Assembly: GCA_002840555.1 (NCBI GenBank)
Contig: PHBJ01000001.1
Location: 62,001-126,000 of the forward strand
Source of the DNA: Deltaproteobacteria bacterium HGW-Deltaproteobacteria-13
Lineage (GTDB): Bacteria > Desulfobacterota > Syntrophia > Syntrophales > Smithellaceae
Reading direction: 5' to 3'
Length of the DNA stretch: 64,000 nucleotides
Of this stretch, positions 1 to 15,575 are shown piece by piece. Made by a program: the position numbers and the translations under genes. Every line of letters starts with the position of its first letter. The stretch's first letter is position 1. The notes beneath the pieces are model-generated. The model did no database searches. It was not told the origin of the DNA and was given only the letters and a program-made list of their open reading frames with translations.

Positions 1-822
1 AAATGCACTCACATTAATCTTGTTCCCACGATTTACGGATGGATGGTGGATTGGCCGAGTATCGTAAATTACGATCTCTCCAGTTTAAGGATTTTAACCT
101 ATGCCGGCAGTCCCTTTCCGACGGAAGTTTTAAAAAAATGCATTCGAAAATTCGGGAATAAATTTGCCCAGGGATATGGCGCAACGGAAACAGCAGGCGC
201 CGGCATATCCGGATTGGCGATAAAAGATCACCACCTGGATGGTCTGAAACAGAAGTATCTCGTCAGCGCCGGTAAGCCGATGCCCAACTCACGAGTTAAA
301 ATTGTGGATGAAAATGAGAATCCGCTGGGTCCTGGTGAGTATGGCGAAATATGCGCCAAAGGCAAGCATATCATGATGGGTTACTGGAAAAATCCGAAGC
401 TGACCGAAGCCGTCCTGAAAGGCGGCTGGTATCATACGGGCGATATGGGTTACATCGATCAGGACGGCTATATCTTTATGACCGACCGCAAGGCGGACAT
501 GATTATTTCCGGCGGCGAGAATGTTTATCCGAAGGAAGTGGAAGACGTCATTTACCAGCATCCGGCCGTAAGGGAATGCACTGTTGTTTCGGCGCCCGAT
601 ACAAAATGGGGAGAAGTGGTTCAGGCCGTTGTGGTTCTTCATCCTGATAAGCAGGCAACGGCAGAGGAGATCATCGAACACTGCAAGAAGCACCTTGCGG
701 GATACAAGTGTCCCAAGGCAGTGGCTTTCTGGAACGATATCCCCAAAACCATTATCGGCAAGATCGTCAAAAAAGACATCAAAAAGAAATTCTGGGAAGG
801 CAAAGAGAGAATGATCAGTTGA
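1..822 (+). CDS. Acyl-CoA ligase, AMP-binding (5' end outside window)
   Basis: C-terminal 273 residues of an ANL-superfamily acid:CoA ligase, which forms an acyl-adenylate from acid and ATP and then the acyl-CoA. The reading frame is open from base 1, so the N-terminal part of the adenylation domain lies upstream of the window. Visible core motifs are YGATETAG (fragment residues about 59-66), YHTGDMG followed by the hinge-region DRKADMIISGGENVYP, and a C-terminal PKTIIGKIVKKDI that carries the expected catalytic lysine. It is first in line of a plus-strand catabolic cluster, 27 bp before an amidohydrolase gene, and probably activates the pathway substrate. Substrate class (fatty, alicyclic or aryl acid) cannot be read from this fragment. 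Confidence 0.9.
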   Translation, partial: KCTHINLVPTIYGWMVDWPSIVNYDLSSLRILTYAGSPFPTEVLKKCIRKFGNKFAQGYGATETAGAGISGLAIKDHHLDGLKQKYLVSAGKPMPNSRVKIVDENENPLGPGEYGEICAKGKHIMMGYWKNPKLTEAVLKGGWYHTGDMGYIDQDGYIFMTDRKADMIISGGENVYPKEVEDVIYQHPAVRECTVVSAPDTKWGEVVQAVVVLHPDKQATAEEIIEHCKKHLAGYKCPKAVAFWNDIPKTIIGKIVKKDIKKKFWEGKERMIS

Positions 823-849: not shown

Positions 850-1869
850 ATGAGCAAAAAAAATGCAGATAATTATTTTAAAATCGATCCGGAATGCCAC
901 CTCATCGGCGACATGGAACACCTGAACCACTTTCCCGGGGTACAAATGTGGTGGCGGGCGATTGAACATATTTCGCGGCCGCTGATCACCGGCGCACCCC
1001 TGCCGCTCATGATGAAGGCCCTGGAAGGTTTGGAAGAATGGGAGGCGGTGAAGAGCGGCGACCCGCAGGTTATCCTTCGGGTCATGGATAAGCACGGCGT
1101 GGACATCGCCTGCCTGCTCCCGGAATCCATGATGGATACGACCGGTTTTAGCAGCCGGTGGGTTTCCAACGGCGAGATGGCCAAGGTGGTGGAGGCCAAT
1201 CCGGACCGGTTCATGTACCAGCCCAATATTTCACCGATCAAACAGCGCGGAGTTAAGAACGCCATCTGGGAGATGGAGTATTGGGTCAGGGAGAAAGGGG
1301 CCAGGATATTCAAGTATTATTCACCCGAAGATACCTACATGAACGACCCTGAACTGTGGCCGTTTTATGAAAAGGCGCAGGAGTTCGGTATTGTGCTGGA
1401 TATGCATACGGGGTTCTGCTGGGTACCGCCGGGCAAGAGCAAGTATTGCCATCCCGAGCAGATCGACGATGTGGCGCGCGACTTTCCGGGACTTAAGATC
1501 AACGCCTTTCACATGGGCTATCCCTACAGTGACGTTCTCAACATGGTGGCCTTGGGCCACCCCAATGTTTACATCTGCATGAGCCTGCTCGTACCCTGGG
1601 CCATTACCGCTCCGCGCAAGTTCGCCCGCCTTTTGGGCGAGGCTATGCGCTTCGTTGGTCCGGACCGCATCACCTGGGGCACGGATTATGCCGGATACGG
1701 AGTTCAGGTGGCCAACGCTGTCAAAGGCCTGGCCGAGTTCCAGATTCCGGAAGATATGCAGCTTGCGTACGGCTATCCTGCTATCACAGAGGAAGACAAG
1801 GCCAAGATGTTCGGCGGCAATCTTGGTCGACTCCTGGGAATTGATACAACAAAAAGAAGAATTAAATAA
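850..1869 (+). CDS. Amidohydrolase-superfamily (Amidohydro_2) enzyme, decarboxylase-like, copy 1
   Basis: 339-residue TIM-barrel protein of the ACMSD/resorcylate-decarboxylase branch (Amidohydro_2). The usual H-x-H metal motif at the first strand is E15-x-H17, as in gamma-resorcylate decarboxylase and LigW. The other expected ligands are seen as H186 (DMHTG), H221 (AFHMG) and D279 (WGTDY). This suggests a metal-dependent non-oxidative decarboxylase or C-C hydrolase rather than an amidase; that is inference. A purine-rich GGGGGGAT-type ribosome site precedes the ATG. The gene lies 20 bp before an ene-reductase, and the same two families recur in reverse order at 12969-15575. Copy 2 is close throughout the length by eye, about two thirds identical. 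Confidence is high for the fold, low for the substrate. Confidence 0.85.
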   Translation: MSKKNADNYFKIDPECHLIGDMEHLNHFPGVQMWWRAIEHISRPLITGAPLPLMMKALEGLEEWEAVKSGDPQVILRVMDKHGVDIACLLPESMMDTTGFSSRWVSNGEMAKVVEANPDRFMYQPNISPIKQRGVKNAIWEMEYWVREKGARIFKYYSPEDTYMNDPELWPFYEKAQEFGIVLDMHTGFCWVPPGKSKYCHPEQIDDVARDFPGLKINAFHMGYPYSDVLNMVALGHPNVYICMSLLVPWAITAPRKFARLLGEAMRFVGPDRITWGTDYAGYGVQVANAVKGLAEFQIPEDMQLAYGYPAITEEDKAKMFGGNLGRLLGIDTTKRRIK

Positions 1870-1889
1870 TATTGGAAGGGGGATAAGTC

Positions 1890-3260
1890 ATGACTGAGAA
1901 ATCAGAAGGCAAGAAACAATTTGAACACATTTTAAAACCTATTAAAATTGGTCCGATTGAACTGAAGAACCGGATTGTTATGGCGCCGATGAATGAGGCG
2001 TTGTCTGGGGCTCATGGTGAAGTGGGAGAACAGTATATCGCCTATTTCGGGGCCCGGGCAAAAGGCGGCACCGGATTGATCACTACGGGTGCGATTATGG
2101 CCACCAAACTGGCAGGAGAGTTCCCGGCCGGCAGGAATCCGCATCTCTACCATCAGGGACACATGCTTGGAATGAACAACCTGACCGACAGGGTTCACTA
2201 TTTCGGATCCAAAGTTGCGGCTCAGATGACCATTGGGTTCGGCAGGCAAGGTCATTCCTATGACCACCATAAGCTGGCTCCGGCTGCTACTGCCGGCCTG
2301 CCCTATGAGATAGCGGCTGAAAAATCGCCCAATCATTGCGCGGATCTTTATGCGGTTATGGAATTTTCAAGATACTATATGACGGGGCAAATGACGCGGG
2401 AGATGTCCATCGAAGAGATCCGCAGCGAACAGAAGGAATTTGCCAATAGCTGCCAGCTTGCAGTCATCTCCGGGTTCGATGCCATAGAGATTCACGGTCC
2501 GCACGGGTACCTCGAGCATCAGTTCTTGTCTCCTTTTTCCAATAAACGCACGGACATGTATGGCGGAGAATGGCGAAACCGCAAGCGTTTCCTTATGGAG
2601 GTTGCCGAACAGGTCCGTTATGCCTGCCCGGGTGTTGCTGTGGGGTGCCGGATCAGCGCGGAAGAGCATATGCAGGGCGGCCTGACCGAGGAAGAGATGA
2701 TCGATGTGGCCAAGGATTTGCAGGCTGTAGGTTTGGATTATATCAGTTTGTCCGACGGCGCCGGCTACGAAGAAAGCGGCCACCTCATCACGGACATGGA
2801 CCGTTCCAAGCATATTCCCGAGCATGGCGAGGCATTCAAAAAGGCTCTCAAGATCCCCGTCATTGTGTCCTCGCAGCACGATCCGGTCAAGATCGAAAAG
2901 AACATCGCCGAAGGCAAGTACGACCTCCAGGCCATGGGAAGGCAGCTTTACTGCGATCCGGAATACGTAAACAAGCTTGAAGCCGGAAAAGCAAAAGAGA
3001 TCGTCCGGTGCTCGCGATGCAATACCTGTCTCATGCGCTTCCTTGCCGCGCTTACTCCCGCATGCACGCAAAACCCGAACCTTGGCAGAGAGTATGCCCT
3101 GGATGAATACAAGATCGGACCATGGCAGAAACACGAGTCAATTATGCCCGAGGGCACAATGAGAGCCTCTATGCCGTCACTTGATCGCCCGTGGTGGAGG
3201 AACGAATTAGGCTATATCGAAAAGAGCTGGAGACCGTTGCAGGGACGTACGTCACGGTAA
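1890..3260 (+). CDS. Old-yellow-enzyme-type FMN/[4Fe-4S] oxidoreductase, copy 1
   Basis: 456-residue NADH:flavin oxidoreductase of the 2,4-dienoyl-CoA reductase/2-enoate reductase group. The FMN barrel begins with KPIKIGPIELKNRIVMAPM and carries the HGPHGYLEHQFLSP active-site loop. The iron-sulfur motif follows as C374-x2-C377-x2-C380-x11-C392; the family norm has x3 at the second gap, so this copy is one residue short. The C-terminal FAD/NAD(P) domain of full-length members (about 650 residues) is absent, so electrons must come from a partner. Likely role is reduction of an activated C=C bond in the cluster's pathway. It follows the amidohydrolase by 20 bp with a GGGGGAT ribosome site and is related to the gene at 12969. 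Confidence 0.88.
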   Translation: MTEKSEGKKQFEHILKPIKIGPIELKNRIVMAPMNEALSGAHGEVGEQYIAYFGARAKGGTGLITTGAIMATKLAGEFPAGRNPHLYHQGHMLGMNNLTDRVHYFGSKVAAQMTIGFGRQGHSYDHHKLAPAATAGLPYEIAAEKSPNHCADLYAVMEFSRYYMTGQMTREMSIEEIRSEQKEFANSCQLAVISGFDAIEIHGPHGYLEHQFLSPFSNKRTDMYGGEWRNRKRFLMEVAEQVRYACPGVAVGCRISAEEHMQGGLTEEEMIDVAKDLQAVGLDYISLSDGAGYEESGHLITDMDRSKHIPEHGEAFKKALKIPVIVSSQHDPVKIEKNIAEGKYDLQAMGRQLYCDPEYVNKLEAGKAKEIVRCSRCNTCLMRFLAALTPACTQNPNLGREYALDEYKIGPWQKHESIMPEGTMRASMPSLDRPWWRNELGYIEKSWRPLQGRTSR

Positions 3261-5257: not shown

Positions 5258-5296
5258 TGAAAGATCTTTTTATGTCATTGTCAGAGGGAAAACGTG

Positions 5297-6133
5297 ATGC
5301 AAACAAAAAAACTTAGAGGCAAAGTCGCATTAGTCACCGGCGCGTCGCGCGGGCTGGGCCGGGCCATTGCGCTGGCCTTGGGACAGGCCGGCGCCGATGT
5401 GGCGCTTACGGATATCCTGATTGAAGGCCAGGAACAGGACTTGGGAAAACTTGGCCGGTACAGCGTGCTGGCTGGGCATTTCGCGCAGTCCGGCGAAGTG
5501 AATACGCTTCTGGGGGCGCGGGAGATCCAATTCATGGGATCACGGAGTTGTGCTTTCAAGATGGACGTGGCGGATTTGGACGAGGTCGGGCGTGTGGTGC
5601 ACATGATCGAAACCGAACTCGGGCCGATTGATATCCTCGTCAACAATGCCGCGGTCATGGATAACCTGGGCAAGTTCGAAGATCAGCAGCCGGAGCGCTG
5701 GCAGCGCGATCTCAATGTCAACCTCACCGGCGCTTATCATTGCAGCAAGGCGGTCTGGCCGGGCATGGTGAAAAAAGGGTGGGGCCGCATTATCAATATA
5801 TCATCCGTGGCAGGTCTCATGGGAGCTTCACTTCAACCTTCGTATGGCGCAACTAAGGCTGGATTGATCGGATTGAGCAAGTCGCTGGCTATCGAGGCTG
5901 GCCGCTACGGCATCACGGTTAATACGGTCTGCCCCGGTTTCATCGCCACTGAGGCAGTGCAACTGTACGATGAACGTATGACTGAACGCATAGCAAAACG
6001 AACTGTCCTGAAGCGGATGGGCCAACCGGAAGAGGTTGCCCACGTTGTAGCTTTTCTGGCTTCGGACGGAGCAGCCTACATTACGGGTGCGGTTATTCCG
6101 GTTACGGGCGGGATCGATCTGCTGACACTTTAG
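5297..6133 (+). CDS. SDR-family oxidoreductase (3-oxoacyl reductase-like)
   Basis: 278-residue classical SDR: TGASRGLG cofactor motif, NNAAVM, ISSVAG, catalytic YGATK, and PCGF-like VCPGFI segment, ending in TGAVIPVTGG typical of FabG-like enzymes. It has about 30 extra residues after the second beta strand (near residues 40-75), which is longer than ordinary FabG. GTG at 5294 and ATG at 5297 are both possible; ATG lies 8 nt from AGAGGG and is preferred. Likely oxidises or reduces a hydroxyacyl/alicyclic intermediate between the MBL hydrolase and the CoA-transferase. Confidence 0.85.
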   Translation: MQTKKLRGKVALVTGASRGLGRAIALALGQAGADVALTDILIEGQEQDLGKLGRYSVLAGHFAQSGEVNTLLGAREIQFMGSRSCAFKMDVADLDEVGRVVHMIETELGPIDILVNNAAVMDNLGKFEDQQPERWQRDLNVNLTGAYHCSKAVWPGMVKKGWGRIINISSVAGLMGASLQPSYGATKAGLIGLSKSLAIEAGRYGITVNTVCPGFIATEAVQLYDERMTERIAKRTVLKRMGQPEEVAHVVAFLASDGAAYITGAVIPVTGGIDLLTL

Positions 6134-6173: not shown

Positions 6174-7211
6174 ATGAAGACGGAAACGATGATCGAAGAA
6201 AAAGAGAACACGGCGATGAACATTATAAAGAAGGGCAGAGGAGAACTGTTCACAGATCCTGATCCTGACCACGCACGAATATTTTTCCGGAAGAAATCAA
6301 GAAAGATGGTGAACAAGTCCATGACGCTTACAAAAGCCATTGAGACATTTGTTCATGATGGAGACTATCTGGCGATGGGCGGGTTTGGTGGAAACAGATC
6401 ACCGATTGCCGCATGTCACGAAATTCTCAGACAGGGAAGGAGGAACATGGGTTTTGCCGGACACACTGCTAGCCATGAGTTCGAGATTCTCAGTGCGGGG
6501 GAAGTTTTCGATCGGGTGGATGCGGCCTACATTGTTGGTCTTGAAGCACGGGGGCTTTCCCCCTGCGCGAGAAGATACATGCAGACCGGCAAGGTTAAGG
6601 TGACCGAGTGGACAAACTACTGCATATCGGCAAGACTCAGAGCCGCTGCCATGGGCGTCCCCTTTGTTCCCACGAGAAACCTTTTGGGCACCGACACTTT
6701 CGAATACAGCGGAAGCATAATCGTTGAATGTCCATACACCGGCAAGAAGCTTGCTCTACAACCTGCGCTCTATCCTGATGTGGCCATCATCCATGTCCAC
6801 GAGTCTGATGTATATGGAAATTGCAGAATCCGAGGCATTCTCAAGTCGGACAACGATCTGGCCCGTGCCGCAAAACGGACGATCATTACCTGCGAACGTT
6901 TGATATCCAATGAAGAAATACGCAGAGATCCTTCCGAAACCACCATTCCCTATTTCCTTGTGGATGCCGTATGCGAGGTACCCTATGGCAACTATCCGGG
7001 TAACATGGTCTATGAGTATTTTTCGGATGAGGAACACTTAAGAGAATGGTTGAAAGCCGAAGAAGATCCTGAAGTGTTCAAGGAATTTCTTCAGCGAAAC
7101 ATTTATGACTGCAAAGATCACCATGAATATATAAACAGGAACGGCGGTATGGAAAAAATACTCAAGCTCCGGACGATCGAACACCTGCTGCATAAGGAGG
7201 CCGACAAATGA
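6174..7211 (+). CDS. CoA-transferase family subunit A (GctA/IpdA-like)
   Basis: 345-residue alpha subunit of a type-I CoA-transferase-fold enzyme, nearest in pattern to glutaconate CoA-transferase A and to IpdA of steroid-ring degradation. The core starts near MTLTKAIETFVHDGDYLAMGGFGGNR and continues through GLEARGLSP and PDVAIIHVHESD. About 50 residues precede the core; the LFTDPDPDHAR stretch seems to belong to an extended subfamily. The start is uncertain: ATG 6174 has its AAGGAG 20 nt away, and ATG 6216 is an alternative. The stop overlaps the subunit B start (ATGA), indicating a heterodimer made together. In IpdAB-type enzymes the reaction is hydrolytic ring opening rather than CoA transfer; which applies here is not settled. 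Confidence 0.85.
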   Translation: MKTETMIEEKENTAMNIIKKGRGELFTDPDPDHARIFFRKKSRKMVNKSMTLTKAIETFVHDGDYLAMGGFGGNRSPIAACHEILRQGRRNMGFAGHTASHEFEILSAGEVFDRVDAAYIVGLEARGLSPCARRYMQTGKVKVTEWTNYCISARLRAAAMGVPFVPTRNLLGTDTFEYSGSIIVECPYTGKKLALQPALYPDVAIIHVHESDVYGNCRIRGILKSDNDLARAAKRTIITCERLISNEEIRRDPSETTIPYFLVDAVCEVPYGNYPGNMVYEYFSDEEHLREWLKAEEDPEVFKEFLQRNIYDCKDHHEYINRNGGMEKILKLRTIEHLLHKEADK

Positions 7212-7981
7212 AACTGCAATATAATTCTATGGAACTGATGATTTGCGTTGCCGCAAGAGAGCTGGAAGACGGTTCAACGCTGGCGGTAGGCACGGGAGCG
7301 CCCTGTGCGGCGGCAATGCTGGCTCAAAAATTGAATTCACCAAACCTGGCGATTATGTTTGAAGCCGGGAGCGTCAGTCCGATTCTTCCCGAGATGCCCA
7401 TTTCCGTTGGAGATTCACGAGCCAGTCACAAGGCGGTGATGGTTTCCACCATGGGCGCTATCATGGAAACCTGTTCCCGGGGATATGTCGATTATACTTT
7501 CCTCGGTGGTGCGCAAATTGATATGTATGGCAACCTGAATTCGACCTATGTGGGAGGGACCCATCAAAAACCGAAAGTGCGTTTTCCCGGCAGCGGCGGG
7601 GCCAACGATTTCGGAAGTTTCTGCTGGAAGATGATGGTCCTGACCGTTCAGGATGCACGTCGCTTTGTGGAGAAATGCGAATTCATCACCACGCCCGGCT
7701 GGCTCCAGGGCGGGAACAGCCGGTATGAAGCGGGATTGCCTGAAGGCACCGGGCCATACAAGGTGTTTACCAATATGGCCGTCATGGACTTCGAGCCCGA
7801 GAGCAAGCGCATGCGCATCATCTCTATCAATCCCGGCTATTCCGTTAAAGATGTTCAGGACAACTGCGGATTTGAGTTACTCAAAGCGCCGCAGATAACC
7901 GAAACACAGCCGCCGACAGAGACTGAGCTGAAGATCCTTAGAGAAGAAGTCGACCCGCATCGCTACGTTATCGGACGGTGA
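7208..7981 (+). CDS. CoA-transferase family subunit B (GctB/IpdB-like)
   Basis: 257-residue beta subunit partner of the preceding gene (4-bp ATGA overlap). The segment MFEAGSVSP places E52 where GctB has its catalytic glutamate, so true CoA-transfer chemistry is possible. Other family landmarks are FLGGAQIDMYGNLNST and FPGSGGANDFGS. AAGGAGG lies 7 bp before the start inside subunit A. A 72-bp gap separates it from the corrinoid operon, with no clear terminator, so the two modules may be co-transcribed. Confidence 0.87.
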   Translation: MKLQYNSMELMICVAARELEDGSTLAVGTGAPCAAAMLAQKLNSPNLAIMFEAGSVSPILPEMPISVGDSRASHKAVMVSTMGAIMETCSRGYVDYTFLGGAQIDMYGNLNSTYVGGTHQKPKVRFPGSGGANDFGSFCWKMMVLTVQDARRFVEKCEFITTPGWLQGGNSRYEAGLPEGTGPYKVFTNMAVMDFEPESKRMRIISINPGYSVKDVQDNCGFELLKAPQITETQPPTETELKILREEVDPHRYVIGR

Positions 7982-8053
7982 GAAAATCACGTGTCGTTAC
8001 ATTCTATATAAAGTTGTTTTGGTCAAATAAATCAGTAATGAGAGGATGGCAGT

Positions 8054-8677
8054 ATGAAAGAATTGGTTCAGGCATTTTCAACACTCGAAGAAGATAGGGT
8101 ATATCAAATCATTGACGAATATCTTGCCAAGTCCGGTGAGCCTCTGGCGCTTGTCAATGAATTATCCCAGGGCATGGAAGAAGTTGGACGTTTATTCAAG
8201 GATGACGAATACGCCCTGGGTGAACTTATCTATTCCGGAGAAATATTCAAAGGCGCCATGGATAAGGTGAAGCCTTTTCTCAAAGACGAAGATGACAAAC
8301 CACATAGAAAAGTAATCATAGGTACGGTCGAAGGCGACATTCATGACCTTGGGAAAAACATCGTGATAACATTGCTTGAATGTTCGGGGTTTCAGGTCAT
8401 CGATCTGGGCGTGGATGTTCCGGCCTCGAAGTTTGTTGATGCGGTGAAGGAAACAGGGGCCAGGCTGGTGGGTATGAGCCTGCTGCTCACCACGGCCATG
8501 GATTCCATGCGTCAGGCAATCAAGTCCCTAAACAACTCAGGTCACCGGGACAGCATAAAGATCATGATTGGCGGGGCGCCGACAAGTGAACGTCTCAAGG
8601 AAGATGTTGGCGCCGACTTTTATGGACGTGATGCCATTGAAGCCCTGGCCATTGCCAGGAGTGTTTTCAACCAGTAA
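8054..8677 (+). CDS. Corrinoid (B12-binding) methyl-carrier protein
   Basis: 207-residue two-domain methyl carrier of the MtaC/MtbC/MttC type: an N-terminal helical cap (about 1-85) and a Rossmann-like cobalamin domain with D95-I-H97-D-L-G100 (EGDIHDLGKN), where H97 is the lower axial cobalt ligand, plus the GGAPTS loop near the C-terminus. It accepts a methyl group from a substrate-specific methyltransferase and passes it on. Two candidate methyltransferases and a reactivase-like gene follow directly, so this is the core of a methyl-transfer operon. Confidence 0.93.
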   Translation: MKELVQAFSTLEEDRVYQIIDEYLAKSGEPLALVNELSQGMEEVGRLFKDDEYALGELIYSGEIFKGAMDKVKPFLKDEDDKPHRKVIIGTVEGDIHDLGKNIVITLLECSGFQVIDLGVDVPASKFVDAVKETGARLVGMSLLLTTAMDSMRQAIKSLNNSGHRDSIKIMIGGAPTSERLKEDVGADFYGRDAIEALAIARSVFNQ

Positions 8678-8691
8678 AGGGGGGGATGAAG

Positions 8692-9807
8692 ATGAATGCT
8701 TCTGAACGAATAGCTGCCGTTGTATCGCTTGCATGCCCTGACCGGGTGCCCCTTGCTCCATTACTTGACCACTGGGCCGCCCCCTATGCAGGGATTACAA
8801 ATACAGTACTCATGAACGATTCTGAAAAGCGTTTCAATGCCGTGCTGAAAACGGCCCGGGACTTCAGGTGGGATATGACCTTTCTTGCCGATACCGCCAA
8901 TACGACACTTTTAAAGCTCGGCGTACCGGCCCGGATTAAGCTTCCCGGTCGTGATCTGCCTGAGCACAGCACTCACCAGTTTGATGAAATAGGTTTCATG
9001 ACGGACGAAGACTACGATGTCCTTGAAAAAGATGGAATCGTTGCATTGTTTTCTACCCTTATACCACGCATATACCCGGAAATGACCATAGAGCAGGCGT
9101 TGATGGACTTCGATTGTGCCGGTAAGGAGATAATCGAACAGGCCATTAAACTTCGTGAAAAGGGTATTGAGCCGGCGGTCGGTTTTGTCACTCCAGGTCC
9201 TTCTTTCGAATATTTCTGTTTTGCCAGAACAGTGAATAAAGGGCTGATGGACCTTCGAAAACGGCCTGCAAAAATAAAATCTGCAGGTAGACGGTTTTGT
9301 GAAGGTATTCTGGAGCTTGCTGTATCATCGGTTATGCAAAACGGTATCCAACGGGTCTTTATCGGCATGAGCCGGTCATCACCGGTATTCCTTACAAGCA
9401 AATACTTCGAGGAATTCATTGTGCCTGATCTCGATTTTCTGGTTCATGGCCTCATTGATGCCAACATAACACCGGTGTTCCATTGCGACACAAACTGGAC
9501 AAAGTTCCTGCCCTATTTTCTGAGATTCCCGAAGGCAAGATGCATCCTCGAGCTGGACAGCTTTACTGACATTTTCAAGGCCAAGGAGATTCTGGGAGAT
9601 CATATGGCGATTATGGGCGATGTGCCCAGTACTTTGCTGGCGGAAGGGTCAAGGGACGAAGTTCTGGATTACTGTAAGAGACTTATTGAAACCATAGGCA
9701 AGGGCGGCGGTTTTATCCTGAGTTCCGGATGTTCAATTCCTTTAAATGCGAAGGCTGATAATGTCATGGCGATGACGGAAGCGGTAGAAGAATGGGGGTG
9801 GTATTGA
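8692..9807 (+). CDS. UroD/MtaA-family methyltransferase-like protein 1
   Basis: 371 residues in the uroporphyrinogen decarboxylase superfamily, whose corrinoid-linked members are zinc methyltransferases (MtaA, CmuA). Visible metal-site candidates are H264-C265 (VFHCDTNW) and C347 (SSGCSIP). The usual spacing is H-x-C, so this member is atypical. ATG 8686 touches the G-rich ribosome site, while ATG 8692 lies at a normal distance and is preferred. Likely role: substrate:corrinoid methyltransferase, or corrinoid-to-acceptor transferase. Its stop overlaps the next start (TGATG), so it is co-translated with a second, canonical family member. Confidence 0.8.
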   Translation: MNASERIAAVVSLACPDRVPLAPLLDHWAAPYAGITNTVLMNDSEKRFNAVLKTARDFRWDMTFLADTANTTLLKLGVPARIKLPGRDLPEHSTHQFDEIGFMTDEDYDVLEKDGIVALFSTLIPRIYPEMTIEQALMDFDCAGKEIIEQAIKLREKGIEPAVGFVTPGPSFEYFCFARTVNKGLMDLRKRPAKIKSAGRRFCEGILELAVSSVMQNGIQRVFIGMSRSSPVFLTSKYFEEFIVPDLDFLVHGLIDANITPVFHCDTNWTKFLPYFLRFPKARCILELDSFTDIFKAKEILGDHMAIMGDVPSTLLAEGSRDEVLDYCKRLIETIGKGGGFILSSGCSIPLNAKADNVMAMTEAVEEWGWY

Positions 9808-10808
9808 TGTCAAAAAGAAATATGCAACATTGGGTACAGGAAATTCTTGATTCCAGGAAGCGGATGGCTTTCCCGCTCATGCCATATATCGGACTTGAGC
9901 TGACGAAGAAGAAGGTCCTGGATGTGGTAAAGAATGGACGGTGTCAGGGCGAGTGCATTAAAGCTGTTGCCTCAAAATATCCTTCAGCCGCAAGCATCAC
10001 CATCATGGATCTTTCCGTTGAGGCGGAGGCCTTCGGCAGTACGATACGTTTTGCCGAAAATGAGGTGCCGACGGCAGTGGGAGTGCTGGTCAATGACGCC
10101 GATGCGGCACAGGCTCTTGAGGTCCCGCGTATCGGAAGCAAAAGAACAGGGGAGTATCTCCATGCGGCCGCCTTGGCGGCCGATCTCGTAACAGACCGTC
10201 CTGTTTTTGGATGTCACATTGGCCCGTTTTCGCTGGCGGCAAGACTCTGCGGCATGACAGAGATCATGGTGAAAATTAGGAAAGAACCGGAGATGATTCA
10301 TACTGTGCTTGATAAGTGCACTGATTTTCTTGTGGAGTATGCCAAGGCTTATAAGGATACGGGCATCAGCGGCATTGTGATCGCGGAACCGGCGGCTGGT
10401 CTTATTTCGCCTGCGCAATGTGAGACATTTTCATCAAAGTACGTGGCAAGAATTGTTTCGACCGTGCAGGATGAAAATTTTATGGTTATTCTTCACAACT
10501 GCGGAAACACGACGAAACTTGTTCCCGCAATTCTAAAGACGGGCGCTATGGGAATTCATTTTGGGAATGCCGTTGACATGGTGCAAATCATGCCACAGGT
10601 TCCGGTTTCCGTGATAGCATTCGGTAATATAAATCCGGTTTTGTTTAGGAATGGAAGCGCTGCGGAAATCAAGGAAAAAACGGCAGAACTGCTTCATGCG
10701 ATGGAAAGATACCCTAATTTTGTTATTTCATCCGGGTGTGACATTCCCCCGGGAACACCGTTCGAAAATATCAATGCATTCTTTAAAGCATTGGATTTTT
10801 ATTTGTAA
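9807..10808 (+). CDS. MtaA-like methylcobamide methyltransferase (UroD family) 2
   Basis: 333 residues, UroD superfamily, closer to MtaA/MtbA than its neighbour. The canonical zinc triad is H230-x-C232 (ILHNCGNTT) and C311 (SSGCDIPPGTP). In methanogens these enzymes move methyl from the corrinoid protein to coenzyme M; in Desulfobacterota the acceptor is usually unknown. Start chosen at 9807, where ATG shares one base with the previous stop and GGGGGTGG lies 6 nt before. The open frame to 9792 would run through this ribosome site. The pair of paralogues suggests one enzyme for demethylation and one for methyl export. Confidence 0.85.
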   Translation: MSKRNMQHWVQEILDSRKRMAFPLMPYIGLELTKKKVLDVVKNGRCQGECIKAVASKYPSAASITIMDLSVEAEAFGSTIRFAENEVPTAVGVLVNDADAAQALEVPRIGSKRTGEYLHAAALAADLVTDRPVFGCHIGPFSLAARLCGMTEIMVKIRKEPEMIHTVLDKCTDFLVEYAKAYKDTGISGIVIAEPAAGLISPAQCETFSSKYVARIVSTVQDENFMVILHNCGNTTKLVPAILKTGAMGIHFGNAVDMVQIMPQVPVSVIAFGNINPVLFRNGSAAEIKEKTAELLHAMERYPNFVISSGCDIPPGTPFENINAFFKALDFYL

Positions 10809-10832
10809 TCCATTACCGGACAAGAAGGAAGC

Positions 10833-11522
10833 ATGAGAGAAATTATTAAGGAAGATCCTAAAAATATAAAAATCGATCTTGACGAAACGAATGCTTTTCA
10901 AAAAACGAAAGGAGTTTCCGTTTTTTCGGAGAAGATTTCATTCTATTTAACAAAGGCAAATGATCTTTTCTGCCAAATGGCGGTTCCGGTTGCTGTAGTA
11001 AAAGAGATAACATACCCACAGTTTCAAACTATTTATTCAGGTCAAGGCAAGAACGAACAGAGAACACCGCTCAACGATATAATGACAAAAGAAGCTGTTT
11101 ACTTTCTTTTTGCGTTGACACTTGGACCTGGTGTTTCAAAGCAAATATCAAATCTGTTCAGCAAAGGCGACTATTTACTGGGTCATTTATTTGATCTGGT
11201 TTGTTCGATCGGAATTGAAGTGTTTGCAGATGATGTAATAAAAAAGTATTTTACGCGGGAAGTTTCAAGGGGAACACTAAAGGATAGTGACATAATGTTA
11301 AGATATAGTCCTGGTTACTGTGGATGGCATATAACCGCTCAGAAGATGCTTCACGAAAAATTGCAAAGCAGTGATATTGGTGTTACACTGACGCAAGCAT
11401 TCTATATGAAGCCAATGAAATCAATATCAGGAGTAATTATTGGCGGTAATCCATCAATGCATGATTTTAATAAAGATTATACTTTTTGTTGCAATTGTCG
11501 AACTAAGCGTTGCCGGAAGTGA
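10833..11522 (+). CDS. MetH activation-domain-like corrinoid reactivation protein
   Basis: 229 residues matching the vitamin-B12-dependent methionine synthase activation domain as a free-standing protein. The signature is RYSPGYCGWHI...QKMLH, followed by IGVTLTQAFYMKPMKSISG and a Cys-rich end (FCCNCRTKRCRK). In MetH this domain binds SAM and remethylates oxidised cob(II)alamin, so here it most likely reactivates the corrinoid protein at 8054. Base composition is clearly more AT-rich than in the genes before it (many ATA, TTA, AAA codons), which suggests a different origin. Starts 24 bp after the MtaA-like gene with AAGGAAGC as ribosome site. The 207 bp after it show no recognisable gene. Confidence 0.8.
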   Translation: MREIIKEDPKNIKIDLDETNAFQKTKGVSVFSEKISFYLTKANDLFCQMAVPVAVVKEITYPQFQTIYSGQGKNEQRTPLNDIMTKEAVYFLFALTLGPGVSKQISNLFSKGDYLLGHLFDLVCSIGIEVFADDVIKKYFTREVSRGTLKDSDIMLRYSPGYCGWHITAQKMLHEKLQSSDIGVTLTQAFYMKPMKSISGVIIGGNPSMHDFNKDYTFCCNCRTKRCRK

Positions 11523-11729
11523 TTGGTTGTTAATGGTATACGACACAGTATCTGATCATCGGATGAACCGGTATGATAATTTTCCATGGATGGCTTCCCT
11601 TCTCAAAAAAAGAGAGCACAGAAGTGTAATGAATATCGGGTTTATTCTAAAACATAATTCACAACGTCAATGTATCGATATGCCGCGGTCATGTAGGCCG
11701 TGTAAATATAACGATGAGACGGAATTTTT

Positions 11730-12743
11730 ATGAATGACTACAAAACCTCAGCGATTGTATTGTTCGGCATCATCAACGCAGCGCTGAAGCTGCGGGTCGA
11801 CATCCAGTCCATCCTGCGGCAGCTCGGGATTCACATAAATTTAGATCATGTTACCCAGTCCACCATCGATTTGAAGCAGGTTCATGCCATTGTTGTGGCA
11901 GTCGAAAAGGCGGGCGGGCATCCGGCCCTTGGACTCTTAGCCGGTGAGGATTTCGATTTCGAATATCTACCTGATCTTAAATCTTTTTTGATGTCCGCCT
12001 CCACCCTGAGGGAAGCCTTTGAATCCATCCACTCCATTCAAAAACTGATCTCACCGCTTTTAATCCTGAATCTTGAAGAAACCGGGAAGGTAGCCATCCT
12101 CAAGTTTCAGCCGGATGGTATGCTTTACGGGGAAGACGAGCGGCACTATTCAGAAATGATCTTTACTGTCATAAAAACCATCATAAATCGTCTGATGAAA
12201 AAGACTGTCCTGCCCAAGGCTGTTCATTTCCGCCACGGCCGGTCTGAACTCACTCCCCTGTATAAAGATTTTTTCGGCAGCGTCATTGTCCTGAATGCAC
12301 CGGAGAATGCCATCATCTATGATCGCACCATCATAGATCTCCCTCTGCCCGGCGGATTTCCAGAGATTCGGCGGCAGGCCGGAAGCATCGTCAATCAGCA
12401 ACTGGCCGGCTCGCCATTGTGCGGCGGACTGCTGGAGGATCTCGAAAGGCTCTTGGTCGCACGCAGTGAGTTATTGAATGCGCCGATCGAACAGGTAGCG
12501 CGGTCGCTGAATATGAGTGCCCGCACCCTGCAACGCCGTCTGGCTGAAAACGGGCATAGTATAACCGAGATACGGAATCTGATCAGATTTAAAATGGCCA
12601 TCCAGGCCTTGCAAGACACGCGGCACAGTATAGAAGACATTGCCGGAAAGCTTGGTTTTTCAGACCGGCACTGCTTCACACAAGCCTTTAAACGCTGGTC
12701 AAGCCTTTCTCCCAGCGCCTATCGTAAAAAACTTACAATATAA
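11730..12743 (+). CDS. AraC-family transcriptional regulator
   Basis: 337 residues: an N-terminal arabinose-binding-type ligand domain of the OruR/ArgR-like class (about 10-200), then a C-terminal double helix-turn-helix (about 235-335) with IEQVARSLNMSARTLQRRL and IEDIAGKLGFSDRHCFTQAF. It stands between the corrinoid operon and the second ene-reductase/amidohydrolase pair, on the same strand, and is the only specific regulator in the catabolic island. It is therefore the best candidate for substrate-responsive control of one or both operons. No operator was identified. Confidence 0.9.
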   Translation: MNDYKTSAIVLFGIINAALKLRVDIQSILRQLGIHINLDHVTQSTIDLKQVHAIVVAVEKAGGHPALGLLAGEDFDFEYLPDLKSFLMSASTLREAFESIHSIQKLISPLLILNLEETGKVAILKFQPDGMLYGEDERHYSEMIFTVIKTIINRLMKKTVLPKAVHFRHGRSELTPLYKDFFGSVIVLNAPENAIIYDRTIIDLPLPGGFPEIRRQAGSIVNQQLAGSPLCGGLLEDLERLLVARSELLNAPIEQVARSLNMSARTLQRRLAENGHSITEIRNLIRFKMAIQALQDTRHSIEDIAGKLGFSDRHCFTQAFKRWSSLSPSAYRKKLTI

Positions 12744-12968
12744 TAGCTCAATCCCGAAGACATACGAGCTTTACCCGGTGTAATTCAAATTGGCGCCGAT
12801 TCTTCCTATTTTGGCATCCGCCGCTCTAGACGTTTTTGGCCGTAATGAGATATCGGATACAATCCTTGAAAAAAGAGAAGTTGATGAATCAGCGGGAGGA
12901 AAGTTGTCAGAAGCGCAAATTATGCATCAATCAGTCAGTCTAACAACTAAAAAAAGGAGATTGTGAAA
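12744..12968 (+). other. Intergenic region before the second ene-reductase
   Basis: 225 bp between the AraC-type regulator and the ene-reductase, the likely place for a regulated promoter. AGGAG at 12955-12959 serves the ATG at 12969. No convincing sigma-70 or sigma-54 promoter, terminator or operator could be picked out by eye. Confidence 0.4.
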
Positions 12969-14417
12969 ATGAAAAGCAATGGATCAACAGAAGGAAAATC
13001 TTCAATGAACCCAAAACATGCACCGATATTTGAACCGATTACGATCAATGGGTGCGAGATCAAGAACCGCATCGTCATGTCACCCATGAACTGTAACTAC
13101 ACGGCGCCGGATCATTACATCAGCAAGCAGCAGATGGCCTATTACGCCGCTAGGGCAAAAGGCGGAACCGGTCTCATCATCACCGAGGCACAGGCGGTAT
13201 CTACGCTGCCCTGTGCGGACACCTACCGCAAGTATAACAATCCGTACCTGACCGATTATCGTTATGTGCCCCTGCAATCCGAGCTGGTGGAGCATGTGCA
13301 TTCCTTCGGCGCCAAGATCTTCGCTCAGCTCTTCACCGGCCCCGGGCGGCAAGGATCCCACGATATAGGAGCTGCGGAGCCGGTTTCCTCCTCGGCCATT
13401 CCCTGGCGCTGGCAGTTTCATAAGGCCATAAACGGCTCAATGGATATGAAGGTCTTAAAGGGAGGGATCAGGATGTCGGGATACCATGGCGCTATCCCTG
13501 ATATCGAGAAAGACCCTGAGGCCTTCATCGCCCTGGTGGATAAGATCCCCATGATGCATATGATGGGGCGGCCGCCCCGGGAAATCACGCGGGAAGAGAT
13601 CAAGCAGCTTGTCATTGATGAAGGCAAGGGAGCGAGGCTGGCAAGACTGGCAGGATATGACGGGGTCGAGATCCATGCCTGTCACGGCTATCTGGTGCAC
13701 TCCTTCCTGGTCGAACGGTCCAATTATCGAAAGGACGAATATGGCGGCAGTTTTGAAAACCGTATCCGTTTTCTGCTGGAGCTGATCAGGTCGGTGCGGC
13801 GGGCCGTGGGGCCTGATTATCCGGTGGGGGTGCGATTCTCCGCCTCCGACGACCTGCCCGACGGATATGATCCAAACGTCGCCGCCATGATAGCGAAGCG
13901 GGTGGAGGAAGAAGGGGCGGACTTCATCGATCTGTCCGATGGTTCGTATGAGGCCATGAGCGATTTTCTGCCCAACACCGAGGGCCAGGTCATAGACAAG
14001 TCCGCCGTCATTCAGGCTGCGGTCAAGATCCCGGTCATGTGTCCCTCCGTTCACAATCCCGATAATGTTGCGGATGTCCTGCAAAAAGGCAAGGCGCAGA
14101 TGGTTCTGCAGGGGCGCCAGCAGATTGCGGATCCCGACTGGGTGAACAAGGTGAAGGAAGGAAAGGAGAAGGAGATCATCAAATGCACCCGCTGCAACCT
14201 GGGCTGCCTCATCCGCTTTGTGGCAATGCTTCCGTCACGTTGCATCAAGAACCCGCGAACAGGACTGGAAGAGTATATCGAGGAATATGCCCGACGCCCC
14301 ATCCTGCCGTTGAAGAATCGCGTGTGGCAGACCGTCGCGGATTGGGGTCGTAAGGAACCGTCCGCGACATGGGAATACACCAATGAAGAAATCGAGCAGG
14401 TCATGAACGTGGAGTGA
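12969..14417 (+). CDS. Old-yellow-enzyme-type FMN/[4Fe-4S] oxidoreductase, copy 2
   Basis: 482-residue paralogue of the gene at 1890. FMN barrel starts at EPITINGCEIKNRIVMSPM; active-site loop HACHGYLVHSFL; cluster motif C406-x2-C409-x3-C413-x11-C425 with canonical spacing, unlike copy 1. It too lacks the C-terminal FAD/NAD(P) domain. It carries about 25 residues more than copy 1, mainly around the middle loop (residues 150-200) and at the N-terminus. GTG at 12963 is too close to AGGAG (3 nt); ATG 12969 is preferred. The last 38 bp of the gene are repeated 64 bp downstream, the trace of a lost tandem paralogue. Confidence 0.88.
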   Translation: MKSNGSTEGKSSMNPKHAPIFEPITINGCEIKNRIVMSPMNCNYTAPDHYISKQQMAYYAARAKGGTGLIITEAQAVSTLPCADTYRKYNNPYLTDYRYVPLQSELVEHVHSFGAKIFAQLFTGPGRQGSHDIGAAEPVSSSAIPWRWQFHKAINGSMDMKVLKGGIRMSGYHGAIPDIEKDPEAFIALVDKIPMMHMMGRPPREITREEIKQLVIDEGKGARLARLAGYDGVEIHACHGYLVHSFLVERSNYRKDEYGGSFENRIRFLLELIRSVRRAVGPDYPVGVRFSASDDLPDGYDPNVAAMIAKRVEEEGADFIDLSDGSYEAMSDFLPNTEGQVIDKSAVIQAAVKIPVMCPSVHNPDNVADVLQKGKAQMVLQGRQQIADPDWVNKVKEGKEKEIIKCTRCNLGCLIRFVAMLPSRCIKNPRTGLEEYIEEYARRPILPLKNRVWQTVADWGRKEPSATWEYTNEEIEQVMNVE

Positions 14418-14474
14418 AGGATGTCACCTCGATGATGAATACACCAATGAAGAAATCAAGCAGATCATGAACGT
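14373..14474 (+). repeat. 38-bp direct duplication of the ene-reductase 3' end
   Basis: Copies at 14373-14410 (inside the ene-reductase) and 14437-14474 differ at only two bases. The second copy reads EYTNEEIKQIMNV and then stops, in a different frame from the gene (offset 64 bp). It looks like the extreme 3' end of another copy of the gene left after deletion between tandem paralogues. Confidence 0.85.
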
Positions 14475-14546
14475 ATAAGGATAAGAATGGAGATAGGCTC
14501 TTACAATACGTCGACGGATTGCGGTAAATAAAGAAGGAGCACCTTA

Positions 14547-15575
14547 ATGGCAAAAATAAACGATGATGGTTTTTTTAAGATTGACCCCGAGCCCCACCTG
14601 ATCGGGAAAAATGGTTCATACTATGAGTATTTCCCCGGATATAAGATGTGGTGGAAGGCAATCGATAATATATCAAGGCCGCTGTTCTCATGCACCCATC
14701 CCACGCTTTTGGCAAAGGCTTACGGAGGGCTGGAGGAGTGGGAAGCCCTGAAAAACCCTGATCCCTCCAATATCCTGCGCGCTATGGACAAGTATGGCGT
14801 GGACATTGCCTGCTTATTACCCGAGTCGTGCATGGATACCTGCGGATATTCGGGCCGGTTCTGCACGAATGGAGAAATGGCCGAGATCGTGGAATCGAAC
14901 CCCGATCGCTTCATGTATCAGCCCAACATGTCTCCCATCAAGTTCAAGGGCGTCAAGAACAGCATCAGGGAACTGGAGTACTGGGTAAAGGAAAAGAAGG
15001 CAAAGATATTCAAATACCTGTGCACAGAGGATACCTACATCAATGATCCGGAGCTGTGGCCCTTCTATGAGAAATGCGAGGAGCTCGGTATCGTGCTGGA
15101 CATTCATACCGGCATGTCATGGTGTCCGCCGCAGGCGAGCAAGTATGCAAACCCCGTATTCCTTGATGATGTGTGCCGCGATTTCCCTGAGCTGAAGATC
15201 ATAGCGTTTCATATGGGGTACCCCTATTGCGATCAGCTGAACATGGTGGCCATGGGGCATGCGAATCTTTATGTCTGCCTCAGCCTCCTGGTGCCCTGGG
15301 CTGTCACCGCTCCGAGAAAATTCGCGACCATTATAGGCGAAGCCTTGCGGTGGGTCGGACCTGACAAGATCATCTGGGGAACGGACTATGCTGGTTTTGC
15401 CCTCCAGATCAAAAATGCCGTGGAAGGATTGCGGGATTTCCAGATACCCGAGGATATGCAGGAAGGCTATGGCTATCCGGCCATAACTGATGAGGACAGG
15501 AAGAAGATTTTCGGCGGTAATTTAGCCCGTCTCCTGGGTATCGATACGAGCATGCGGAGAATAAAAACCAAATAA
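14547..15575 (+). CDS. Amidohydrolase-superfamily (Amidohydro_2) enzyme, decarboxylase-like, copy 2
   Basis: 342-residue paralogue of the protein at 850, with matching residue numbering at the N-terminus: E15-x-H17, then DIHTG, AFHMG and WGTDY metal-ligand segments. Large blocks are the same in both (for example GVDIACLLPES, TYxNDPELWPFYEK, LLVPWAxTAPRKFA). Residue differences cluster around the predicted pocket loops (FCWVPPGKSKYCHP in copy 1, MSWCPPQASKYANP here), so the two may act on related but different substrates. AAGGAG is 10 nt before the ATG. The gene is followed by a strong terminator, so it closes the second ene-reductase/amidohydrolase operon. Confidence 0.85.
   Translation: MAKINDDGFFKIDPEPHLIGKNGSYYEYFPGYKMWWKAIDNISRPLFSCTHPTLLAKAYGGLEEWEALKNPDPSNILRAMDKYGVDIACLLPESCMDTCGYSGRFCTNGEMAEIVESNPDRFMYQPNMSPIKFKGVKNSIRELEYWVKEKKAKIFKYLCTEDTYINDPELWPFYEKCEELGIVLDIHTGMSWCPPQASKYANPVFLDDVCRDFPELKIIAFHMGYPYCDQLNMVAMGHANLYVCLSLLVPWAVTAPRKFATIIGEALRWVGPDKIIWGTDYAGFALQIKNAVEGLRDFQIPEDMQEGYGYPAITDEDRKKIFGGNLARLLGIDTSMRRIKTK

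Follow-up and report, generated by a model that had tools for sequence, protein, structure and literature searches.

The described corrinoid systems for aromatic methyl ethers, MtvABC of Moorella, Odm and Vdm of Acetobacterium dehalogenans, and MtoABCD of Methermicoccus, pair a UroD-superfamily methyltransferase and a small corrinoid protein with a folate or methanopterin methyltransferase of the MtrH/MtvA kind and an ATP-dependent activase. MtvB, OdmB, and VdmB are UroD-superfamily proteins close to CdmB of the chloromethane system CdmBCA, and the O-demethylase MtoB is CdmB's closest relative (PMC13222342). Here we compare these systems with a four-gene methyl-transfer operon in a 64,000-nucleotide stretch of DNA, the window (G000:C20:62001-126000, contig PHBJ01000001.1), from Deltaproteobacteria bacterium HGW-Deltaproteobacteria-13, whose 3.51-Mb genome (G000) is rated 100% complete. 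The genomes G011 and G008, used in comparisons below, are of the same genus. The operon reads as follows:

8054..8677, + strand: corrinoid protein, the methyl carrier (Pfam B12-binding 1.7e-25, B12-binding_2 3.3e-12; DxHxxG cobalamin site GDIHDLGKN)
8686..9807, + strand: UroD1, predicted substrate methyltransferase of the O-demethylase type (URO-D 5.7e-24; H266-x-D268...C349)
9792..10808, + strand: UroD2, MtaA-like, predicted methyl-corrinoid:thiol methyltransferase (URO-D 3.1e-54; H235-x-C237...C316)
10833..11522, + strand: stand-alone MetH-type activation protein (Met_synt_B12 1.5e-7, a weak match; S-adenosylmethionine (SAM) motif RYSPGY, C-x2-C-x4-C tail)

Spacings between the genes are 8, -16, and 24 bp, and open reading frames (ORFs) and Pfam matches confirmed the gene content and positions reported in the initial annotation, with Pfam scores well outside what chance would give. 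The corrinoid protein scored 161 bits against TIGR02370, under the cut-off of 215.

Like the Mtv, Odm, Vdm, and Mto systems, the operon combines a UroD-superfamily methyltransferase with a small corrinoid protein, and a methyl ether donor is predicted. A UroD-type demethylase, which the operon very probably encodes, is the expected, known design for aromatic methyl ethers, as represented by MtvB, OdmB, VdmB, and MtoB. What appears to be new, judging from sequence, is the acceptor side and the activation, where the folate methyltransferase and RACo are replaced by a thiol-type UroD and by a MetH activation protein of the SAM type. We assign a probability of about 0.5 to the reading that the operon O-demethylates methoxylated aromatics, delivers the methyl group to a thiol, which may be sulfide, and reactivates its corrinoid with SAM.

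Neither an MtrH-type or dedicated PF00809-type methyltransferase nor RACo or Ram was found, which sets it apart from Mtv, Odm, Mto, and Cdm. UroD1 and CdmB share a clade, but CdmB has neither metal ligands nor zinc in its active site, whereas UroD1 has H-C-D...C; CdmA is a predicted folate methyltransferase, and neither RACo nor a CdmA-like gene was found in the operon's genome. Type 1 mlp clusters, which hold at least two Mlps, a corrinoid protein, and Ram, with no folate methylase within 20 kb (PMC10418091), resemble the operon, as do MtaA/MtbA, in the His-Cys-Cys site seen in UroD2, in the corrinoid protein, and in having no folate methyltransferase in the cluster. However, the operon has a single Mlp-like protein, Ram and RACo were not found, and its neighbors are of the aromatic and coenzyme A (CoA) type instead of sulfur or selenium genes. 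EMT (EmtABCD) is likewise a SAM-fed corrinoid system in a degradation pathway, but it has a RACE-like activase, whereas our operon has UroDs and no RACo was found. Membership in EMT was rejected because EmtA is related to MtmB (PMC7448270).

UroD1 and the methyl donor

Among solved structures, CdmB (9rui, 6.8e-26) was the sole clear relative of UroD1 in a phmmer search, with 27% identity over 357 columns, compared to 21% identity with MtaA. The family was placed in a 103-sequence tree whose references were CdmB, MtaA, and two HemE proteins; CmuA, considered as a further reference, was absent from the plasmid matches. The UroD1 family and CdmB formed an 82-tip clade with support of 0.999, and UroD2, MtaA, and HemE fell outside it. 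By this placement UroD1 appears to belong with the substrate methyltransferases, CdmB alone standing in the tree for the group of MtvB, OdmB, VdmB, and MtoB. A phylogeny of both UroD-type proteins had been proposed in the initial annotation: UroD1 joined CdmB, and UroD2 grouped with MtaA only weakly (support 0.30).

Aligned to the H-x-C...C columns of MtaA, UroD1 reads H-C-D...C, with Asp rather than the middle Cys at the ligand position. The pattern H-x-D...C recurred in 75 of 78 UroD1-family proteins (HFDC 34, HCDC 25, HLDC 11, HIDC 3, HYDC 2; exceptions HCD-, YLEC, and LWET), a count that left out matches outside the length range of 330-480 aa, those at or below 150 bits, and the duplicates L034, L035, and L038. 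H266, D268, and C349 were invariant across the 35 sequences of alignment A2, and the same columns read S-F-Q...F in CdmB and L-F-T...H in the complete HemE stretch. Within the superfamily, His-Cys-Cys marks methyltransferases of the sulfur/selenium type, while O-type enzymes have carboxylates or non-ligands (Kountz and Balskus, PMC10418091). We infer that the metal site of UroD1, whose metal binding is predicted, is of the carboxylate type linked to O-demethylases. The zinc motifs initially suggested therefore held for UroD2 (H-x-C...C) but needed correction for UroD1, where Asp268 of H-x-D...C takes the place of the proposed H-C...C ligand.

An AlphaFold2 model of UroD1 (predicted local distance difference test, pLDDT, 95.8) matched MtaA with a Z score of 31.2 and a root-mean-square deviation of 2.8 over 328 residues, and HemE with a Z score of about 30. 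Because the model is similar to both, fold alone does not decide the family. CdmB (9rui) was not among the structural matches listed for the model, from a library ending in April 2026. True HemE identity was rejected for UroD1 and UroD2, which scored 26.9 and 74.5 bits against TIGR01464, far under its cut-off of 302.95; this agrees with the earlier view that neither is a uroporphyrinogen decarboxylase. These were also the only URO-D matches in the G000 genome, so no uroporphyrinogen decarboxylase was seen and haem, if made, needs another route.

UroD1 matches (E <= 0.001) occurred in 26 of the 149 relatives searched, and identities of at least 59% were reached solely in G011, G137, and G131 besides G000. 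Readthrough or selenocysteine was considered for the G011 copy and dismissed, since its single TGA is where the protein naturally ends (ORF of 369 aa).

The initial annotation had suggested that one of the UroD-type proteins may itself be the demethylase, and UroD1 is very likely that protein, given its place in the CdmB clade, its H-x-D...C motif, and its gene context. The lack of MtaB, MtbB, and MttB, regarded there as an oddity, was borne out among the annotated genes (these families were not searched genome-wide). It is no oddity, though: UroD-superfamily O-demethylases are known, so that this absence is normal for aromatic methyl ethers, for which it is the usual design (PMC13222342).

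UroD2 and the methyl acceptor

Against solved structures, UroD2 matched MtaA first (2e-14), with HemE proteins behind. Its motif, H-N-C...C, is like the H-I-C...C of MtaA, to which it is 27.3% identical over 253 columns of a partial MtaA sequence. It has both marks of an Mlp: it exceeds 25% identity to a characterised SCMT and carries a His-Cys-Cys site. Copies of at least 56% identity were present in 6 of 155 genomes in a search of the class (G000, G007, G008, G010, G011 with two, and G043), and a search of the phylum (395 genomes) added homologs at 41-50% in three further genomes. All seven loci with copies of at least 56% contained a corrinoid protein, an activation-type protein, and one or two other UroDs of varying kind, and none contained a small pterin-domain gene. 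UroD2 is constant while the donor-side UroDs vary, which is the pattern expected of an acceptor-side methyltransferase. It seems to occupy the usual place of the folate methyltransferase, with a predicted thiol site of the MtaA type.

Searches for alternative acceptor enzymes yielded little. In G000, PF00809 (pterin domain) matched only two proteins, one FolP-like and the other an 807-aa MetH that has no activation domain, and MtrH (PF02007) was absent from all 10 genomes searched, G000 included. A dedicated folate-type acceptor enzyme was thus not seen in G000. An extra PF00809 gene was likewise found in none of the six genomes with UroD2 of at least 56% (G011 and G043 being 92% and 88% complete). 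Coenzyme M was rejected as the methyl acceptor because ComA was found in none of six genomes searched, other coenzyme M routes lying outside the search. We also rejected a strict mutual exclusion of UroD2 and pterin-type methyltransferases, as G131 and G137 have neither and G125 has a 33% UroD2-like gene together with extra PF00809 genes. The five genomes that all had extra PF00809 genes (G027, G030, G066, G080, and G076) were chosen after such genes had been seen in their clusters, which makes the contrast with them a biased one.

Two further arrangements were noted. In G007 and G008 (L159 7049-16700, L160 3205-12775), the stretch between the housekeeping activation gene and MetH holds a UroD with H-N-C...C together with a corrinoid and an activation protein, which hints at a methionine link. 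A plasmid record of the gut bacterium Subdoligranulum variabile (OY725838.1, L172 1-3304) carries a 48% UroD2 homolog with RACo two genes on, and no corrinoid gene was seen nearby.

Corrinoid reactivation

By sequence, the activation protein matched a single solved structure, TM0269 of Thermotoga maritima (1j6r, 0.0032). Its model is of modest confidence (pLDDT 67.8); a Foldseek search with it returned 1j6r at the top (5e-10), and the first 14 rows were all MetH proteins. RYSPGY aligns with RISPGY of 1j6r, and we take R-x-S-P-G-Y to be the SAM-binding motif. TM0269, a stand-alone MetH activation protein, thus shares the fold and the motif; the operon copy additionally has the tail C-x2-C-x4-C and is part of a methyltransferase operon.

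After removal of the duplicates L052 and L130, the 21 matches to this protein left 19 distinct relatives. Ten of these keep R-[YF]-S-P-G-Y and the C-x2-C-x4-C tail, and none of the ten has RACo within 8 kb, although L156 lies on a 4.2-kb contig where an adjacent RACo is not judgeable. By contrast, five relatives (L037, L038, L161, L170, and L124) have NPGSL in place of the SAM motif, and RACo lies within 8 kb of all five. The remainder comprises three housekeeping forms without the tail and one other. RACo was sought here by BLAST with one query, which may miss distant forms. Because several relatives are closely related and G011 has RACo in another cluster, we regard the contrast between SAM motif and RACo as suggestive. 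In the G000 genome, the RACo profile PF14574 had no match.

A PF02965 search had suggested that the operon copy was the genome's only MetH activation protein. This idea was abandoned when searching by protein sequence turned up another copy at C22:7436-7756, about 8 kb from MetH, a housekeeping form that lacks the tail. Given that copy near MetH, the one in the operon looks dedicated to the operon. Its gene has a third-position GC content of 0.31, compared to 0.50-0.68 for the rest of the genes in the span that runs from CoA-transferase A through the second amidohydrolase. In titles or abstract openings of the matching literature, no stand-alone activation protein is described in a demethylase operon.

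Gene context and the CoA pathway

The genes around the operon in the window are as follows:

43..822, + strand: 3' half of an acyl-CoA synthetase gene (520 aa in full, beginning upstream of the window, L151 17260-18822; 72-72.5% to synthetases in UroD1 loci of G131 and G137)
850..1869, + strand: PF04909 amidohydrolase, distant relative of 5-carboxyvanillate decarboxylase (74% to counterparts in UroD1 loci of G131 and G137)
1890..3260, + strand: old-yellow-enzyme-type flavin oxidoreductase (74-77% to copies in UroD1 loci of G131, G137, and L051)
5294..6133, + strand: short-chain dehydrogenase (SDRb), conserved near UroD1 (61% in G131, 71% in L051)
6174..7211, + strand: class I CoA-transferase subunit A (PF01144 1.8e-29; equivalent position in G011)
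7208..7981, + strand: class I CoA-transferase subunit B (PF01144 1.2e-22; equivalent position in G011)
11730..12743, + strand: AraC-family regulator (equivalent position in G011)
12963..14417, + strand: second old-yellow-enzyme-type oxidoreductase (97% in G011)
14547..15575, + strand: second amidohydrolase, of the same kind as the first by similarity (95% in G011; 70-71% to amidohydrolases of G131, G137, and L087)

The CoA-transferase pair ends at 7981, 72 bp ahead of the corrinoid gene. Before the window start lie genes for a tandem MerR-TetR regulator, a thiolase, a DUF35 protein, an enoyl-CoA hydratase, an acyl-CoA dehydrogenase, and the acyl-CoA synthetase. From the thiolase onward, these genes have the identical order in G000 and G131, which belongs to another family of the order, at 72-89% identity, the G131 thiolase being incomplete at the end of the examined stretch. 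After this block, G131 continues with a flavin oxidoreductase, an amidohydrolase, a corrinoid protein (only 38% identical to its counterpart in the window), UroD1 (59%) with a pyrogallol-hydroxytransferase-like large subunit (1028 bits) beside it, an iron-sulfur subunit, and a short-chain dehydrogenase. In L051 the order is synthetase, flavin oxidoreductase, amidohydrolase, short-chain dehydrogenase, corrinoid protein, and UroD1 (82%). One G137 contig has the synthetase, flavin oxidoreductase, amidohydrolase, an acetylene-hydratase-type molybdoenzyme (372 bits), and a corrinoid protein; its other contig has a corrinoid protein with UroD1. At low identity, an acyl-CoA dehydrogenase, acyl-CoA synthetase, flavin oxidoreductase, thiolase, DUF35 protein, and UroD1 recur in L116.

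We examined 82 UroD1-family loci: G131, the second G137 contig, and the 80 best from a set of 314. Many of them end at contig edges. Molybdenum enzymes shared eight of these loci, in three phyla: a transhydroxylase type in four (G131 and three Sporomusa, close relatives of one another) and an acetylene-hydratase type in four (G137 and the Actinomycetota L065, L068, and L087). Because UroD1 loci carry CoA-type degradation genes and molybdenum enzymes, our interpretation is that a methoxylated aromatic, processed as its CoA ester, serves as donor, and this context points to an aromatic methyl ether as the substrate of UroD1. The tie to a CoA-ester pathway proposed in the initial annotation is upheld by the upstream CoA genes, their order shared with G131, and the CoA-transferase pair.

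Third-base agreement at identical residues between the window and G011 (L034) was 83-90% for AraC, the second flavin oxidoreductase, and the second amidohydrolase, compared to 41-60% for CoA-transferase A and B, the corrinoid protein, UroD1, UroD2, and the activation protein. Across 6174-15575 of the window, the step falls between the activation gene (0.57) and AraC (0.90). The CoA-transferase and methyl-transfer genes thus appear to have undergone exchange as a single unit, and this supports a functional link between the two.

Several further features of these loci were recorded. Amidohydrolase and flavin-oxidoreductase sets flank the operon on both sides (850-3260 and 12963-15575). When the first set of the window is compared with G011's version of the second, identity is 69% for the amidohydrolase and 35% for the flavin oxidoreductase. 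The upstream regulator is a 591-aa protein of two MerR-TetR units in tandem (L151 11558-13333), and both G131 and G137 carry single-unit homologs (42%) in their UroD1 loci. An iron-sulfur protein and two FAD_binding_4-type flavoproteins adjoin UroD1 homologs in two genomes (L054 5182-9792, L055 5428-9990), and a homologous set adjoins UroD2-like genes in two others (L181 4391-8657, L182 10929-15195). Assignment of the L055 flavoprotein beside UroD1 to the vanillyl-alcohol-oxidase type was rejected, the structural match being weak and confined to the N-terminal FAD part. A scan for promoters gave no excess (6, compared to 6.6 expected from shuffled sequence), and one for terminators gave 5, compared to 4.1 with a standard deviation of 2.0.

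Proposed mechanism and alternatives

In the mechanism that we propose, the corrinoid module of this anaerobic bacterium would strip the methyl group from a methoxylated aromatic of the surrounding CoA pathway. UroD1 would hold the methyl ether at a zinc ion bound by H266, D268, and C349 and pass the methyl to the Co(I) corrinoid protein. UroD2, with its MtaA-like zinc site, would then move it from the corrinoid to a thiol, giving methanethiol if the acceptor is sulfide, or to another small thiol. Corrinoid oxidized to Co(II) would be restored by the MetH-type activation protein with SAM and an electron, replacing the ATP-driven RACo. The genes, their folds and motifs, the gene order, and the partners missing from the genome searches were observed directly; metal binding, the individual reactions, the aromatic substrate, and the thiol acceptor are all predicted here.

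Several observations weigh against this mechanism. UroD2 scored 120.3 bits against the MtaA/CmuA model TIGR01463, below the cut-off of 235.4, and its grouping with MtaA in the tree is weak. Its 41% homologs in G356 and G398 have no nearby corrinoid gene, and the 50% homolog in G489 has a corrinoid gene nearby but neither an activation gene nor a second UroD. On the donor side, the three Sporomusa UroD1 genes stand with a molybdenum enzyme but without an adjacent corrinoid gene, and among solved structures UroD1 is matched best by a haloalkane enzyme. In G131 and G137, UroD1 and a corrinoid protein occur with no ortholog of UroD2 and no dedicated methyltransferase of the pterin type, so the methyl group must take a different acceptor route in those genomes. 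The G011 operon copy keeps the SAM motif, yet a RACo gene sits in another G011 cluster. Finally, the absences from genomes rest on profile searches, and the PF02965 profile had missed the second activation gene.

The methyl group could instead end on tetrahydrofolate as in acetogens after UroD1 has demethylated an aromatic methyl ether, either through UroD2 as an unrecognised folate methyltransferase or through the MetH on C22 running in reverse. Known systems do give the methyl to folate or methanopterin, as shown for MtoA with tetrahydrofolate (PMC8630106) and predicted for CdmA (PMC13222342); Kountz and Balskus leave open that an Mlp may be a folate methyltransferase (PMC10418091), and a MetH with a pterin domain is present in the genome. 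We nevertheless consider this route rather unlikely, since the His-Cys-Cys site of UroD2 is of the sulfur/selenium type and the six genomes with close UroD2 copies lack an extra PF00809 gene. Alternatively, the donor could be a haloalkane, as in the Cdm system, or a thiol or selenol carrying a methyl group, as for Mlps, and the genes would serve its salvage or detoxification. This would fit the match of UroD1 to CdmB in the PDB and the Mlp-like nature of UroD2, given that selenide is methylated in vitro by Mlp2 of C. ljungdahlii (PMC10418091). However, all three metal ligands are missing from CdmB (S-F-Q...F), which also has no zinc (PMC13222342), whereas UroD1 retains the ligands, and the neighboring genes are of the aromatic and CoA type rather than sulfur, selenium, or halide genes, making such a donor improbable.

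It is also conceivable, though highly unlikely in our view, that the pathway runs the other way, with SAM as the source of a methyl group that the activation protein loads onto the corrinoid and that a UroD next places on a ring or carbon skeleton. The retained SAM motif would allow this, the SAM-driven oestrogen methyltransferase EMT offers a precedent (PMC7448270), and the thiolase with its ChsH2-like DUF35 partner and the flavoenzymes with distant, below-cut-off similarity to BaiCD recall steroid-type pathways. Yet EmtA is related to MtmB and not to UroD (PMC7448270), and the loci of UroD1 relatives hold molybdenum enzymes that would be expected after demethylation. We retain O-demethylation with a thiol acceptor as the preferred reading.

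Implications

Three features go beyond what was initially noted: the predicted thiol-type UroD at the position of the folate methyltransferase, the lack of a RACo match in the genome, and the kept SAM motif. Methoxyaromatic degraders are reported to methylate sulfide (PMC7374477), and among the matches listed, no title or abstract opening names a gene for sulfide methylation from methoxyaromatics; matches on MddA-type S-methyltransferases concern another route. We tentatively suggest, as a possibility that we hold less firmly than the general mechanism, that O-demethylation is coupled directly to sulfide or thiol methylation in a SAM-primed, ATP-independent corrinoid cycle, and that UroD2 may be the sulfide methyltransferase behind the methanethiol and dimethyl sulfide formed from lignin-type methoxyaromatics in anoxic sediment. 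The operon offers a concrete candidate pair for this process, with UroD1 on the donor side and UroD2 on the acceptor side. If the proposal is true, demethylation would proceed without a dedicated folate route, SAM-driven corrinoid repair would replace RACo, and the operon would be a candidate source of methyl-sulfur gases.

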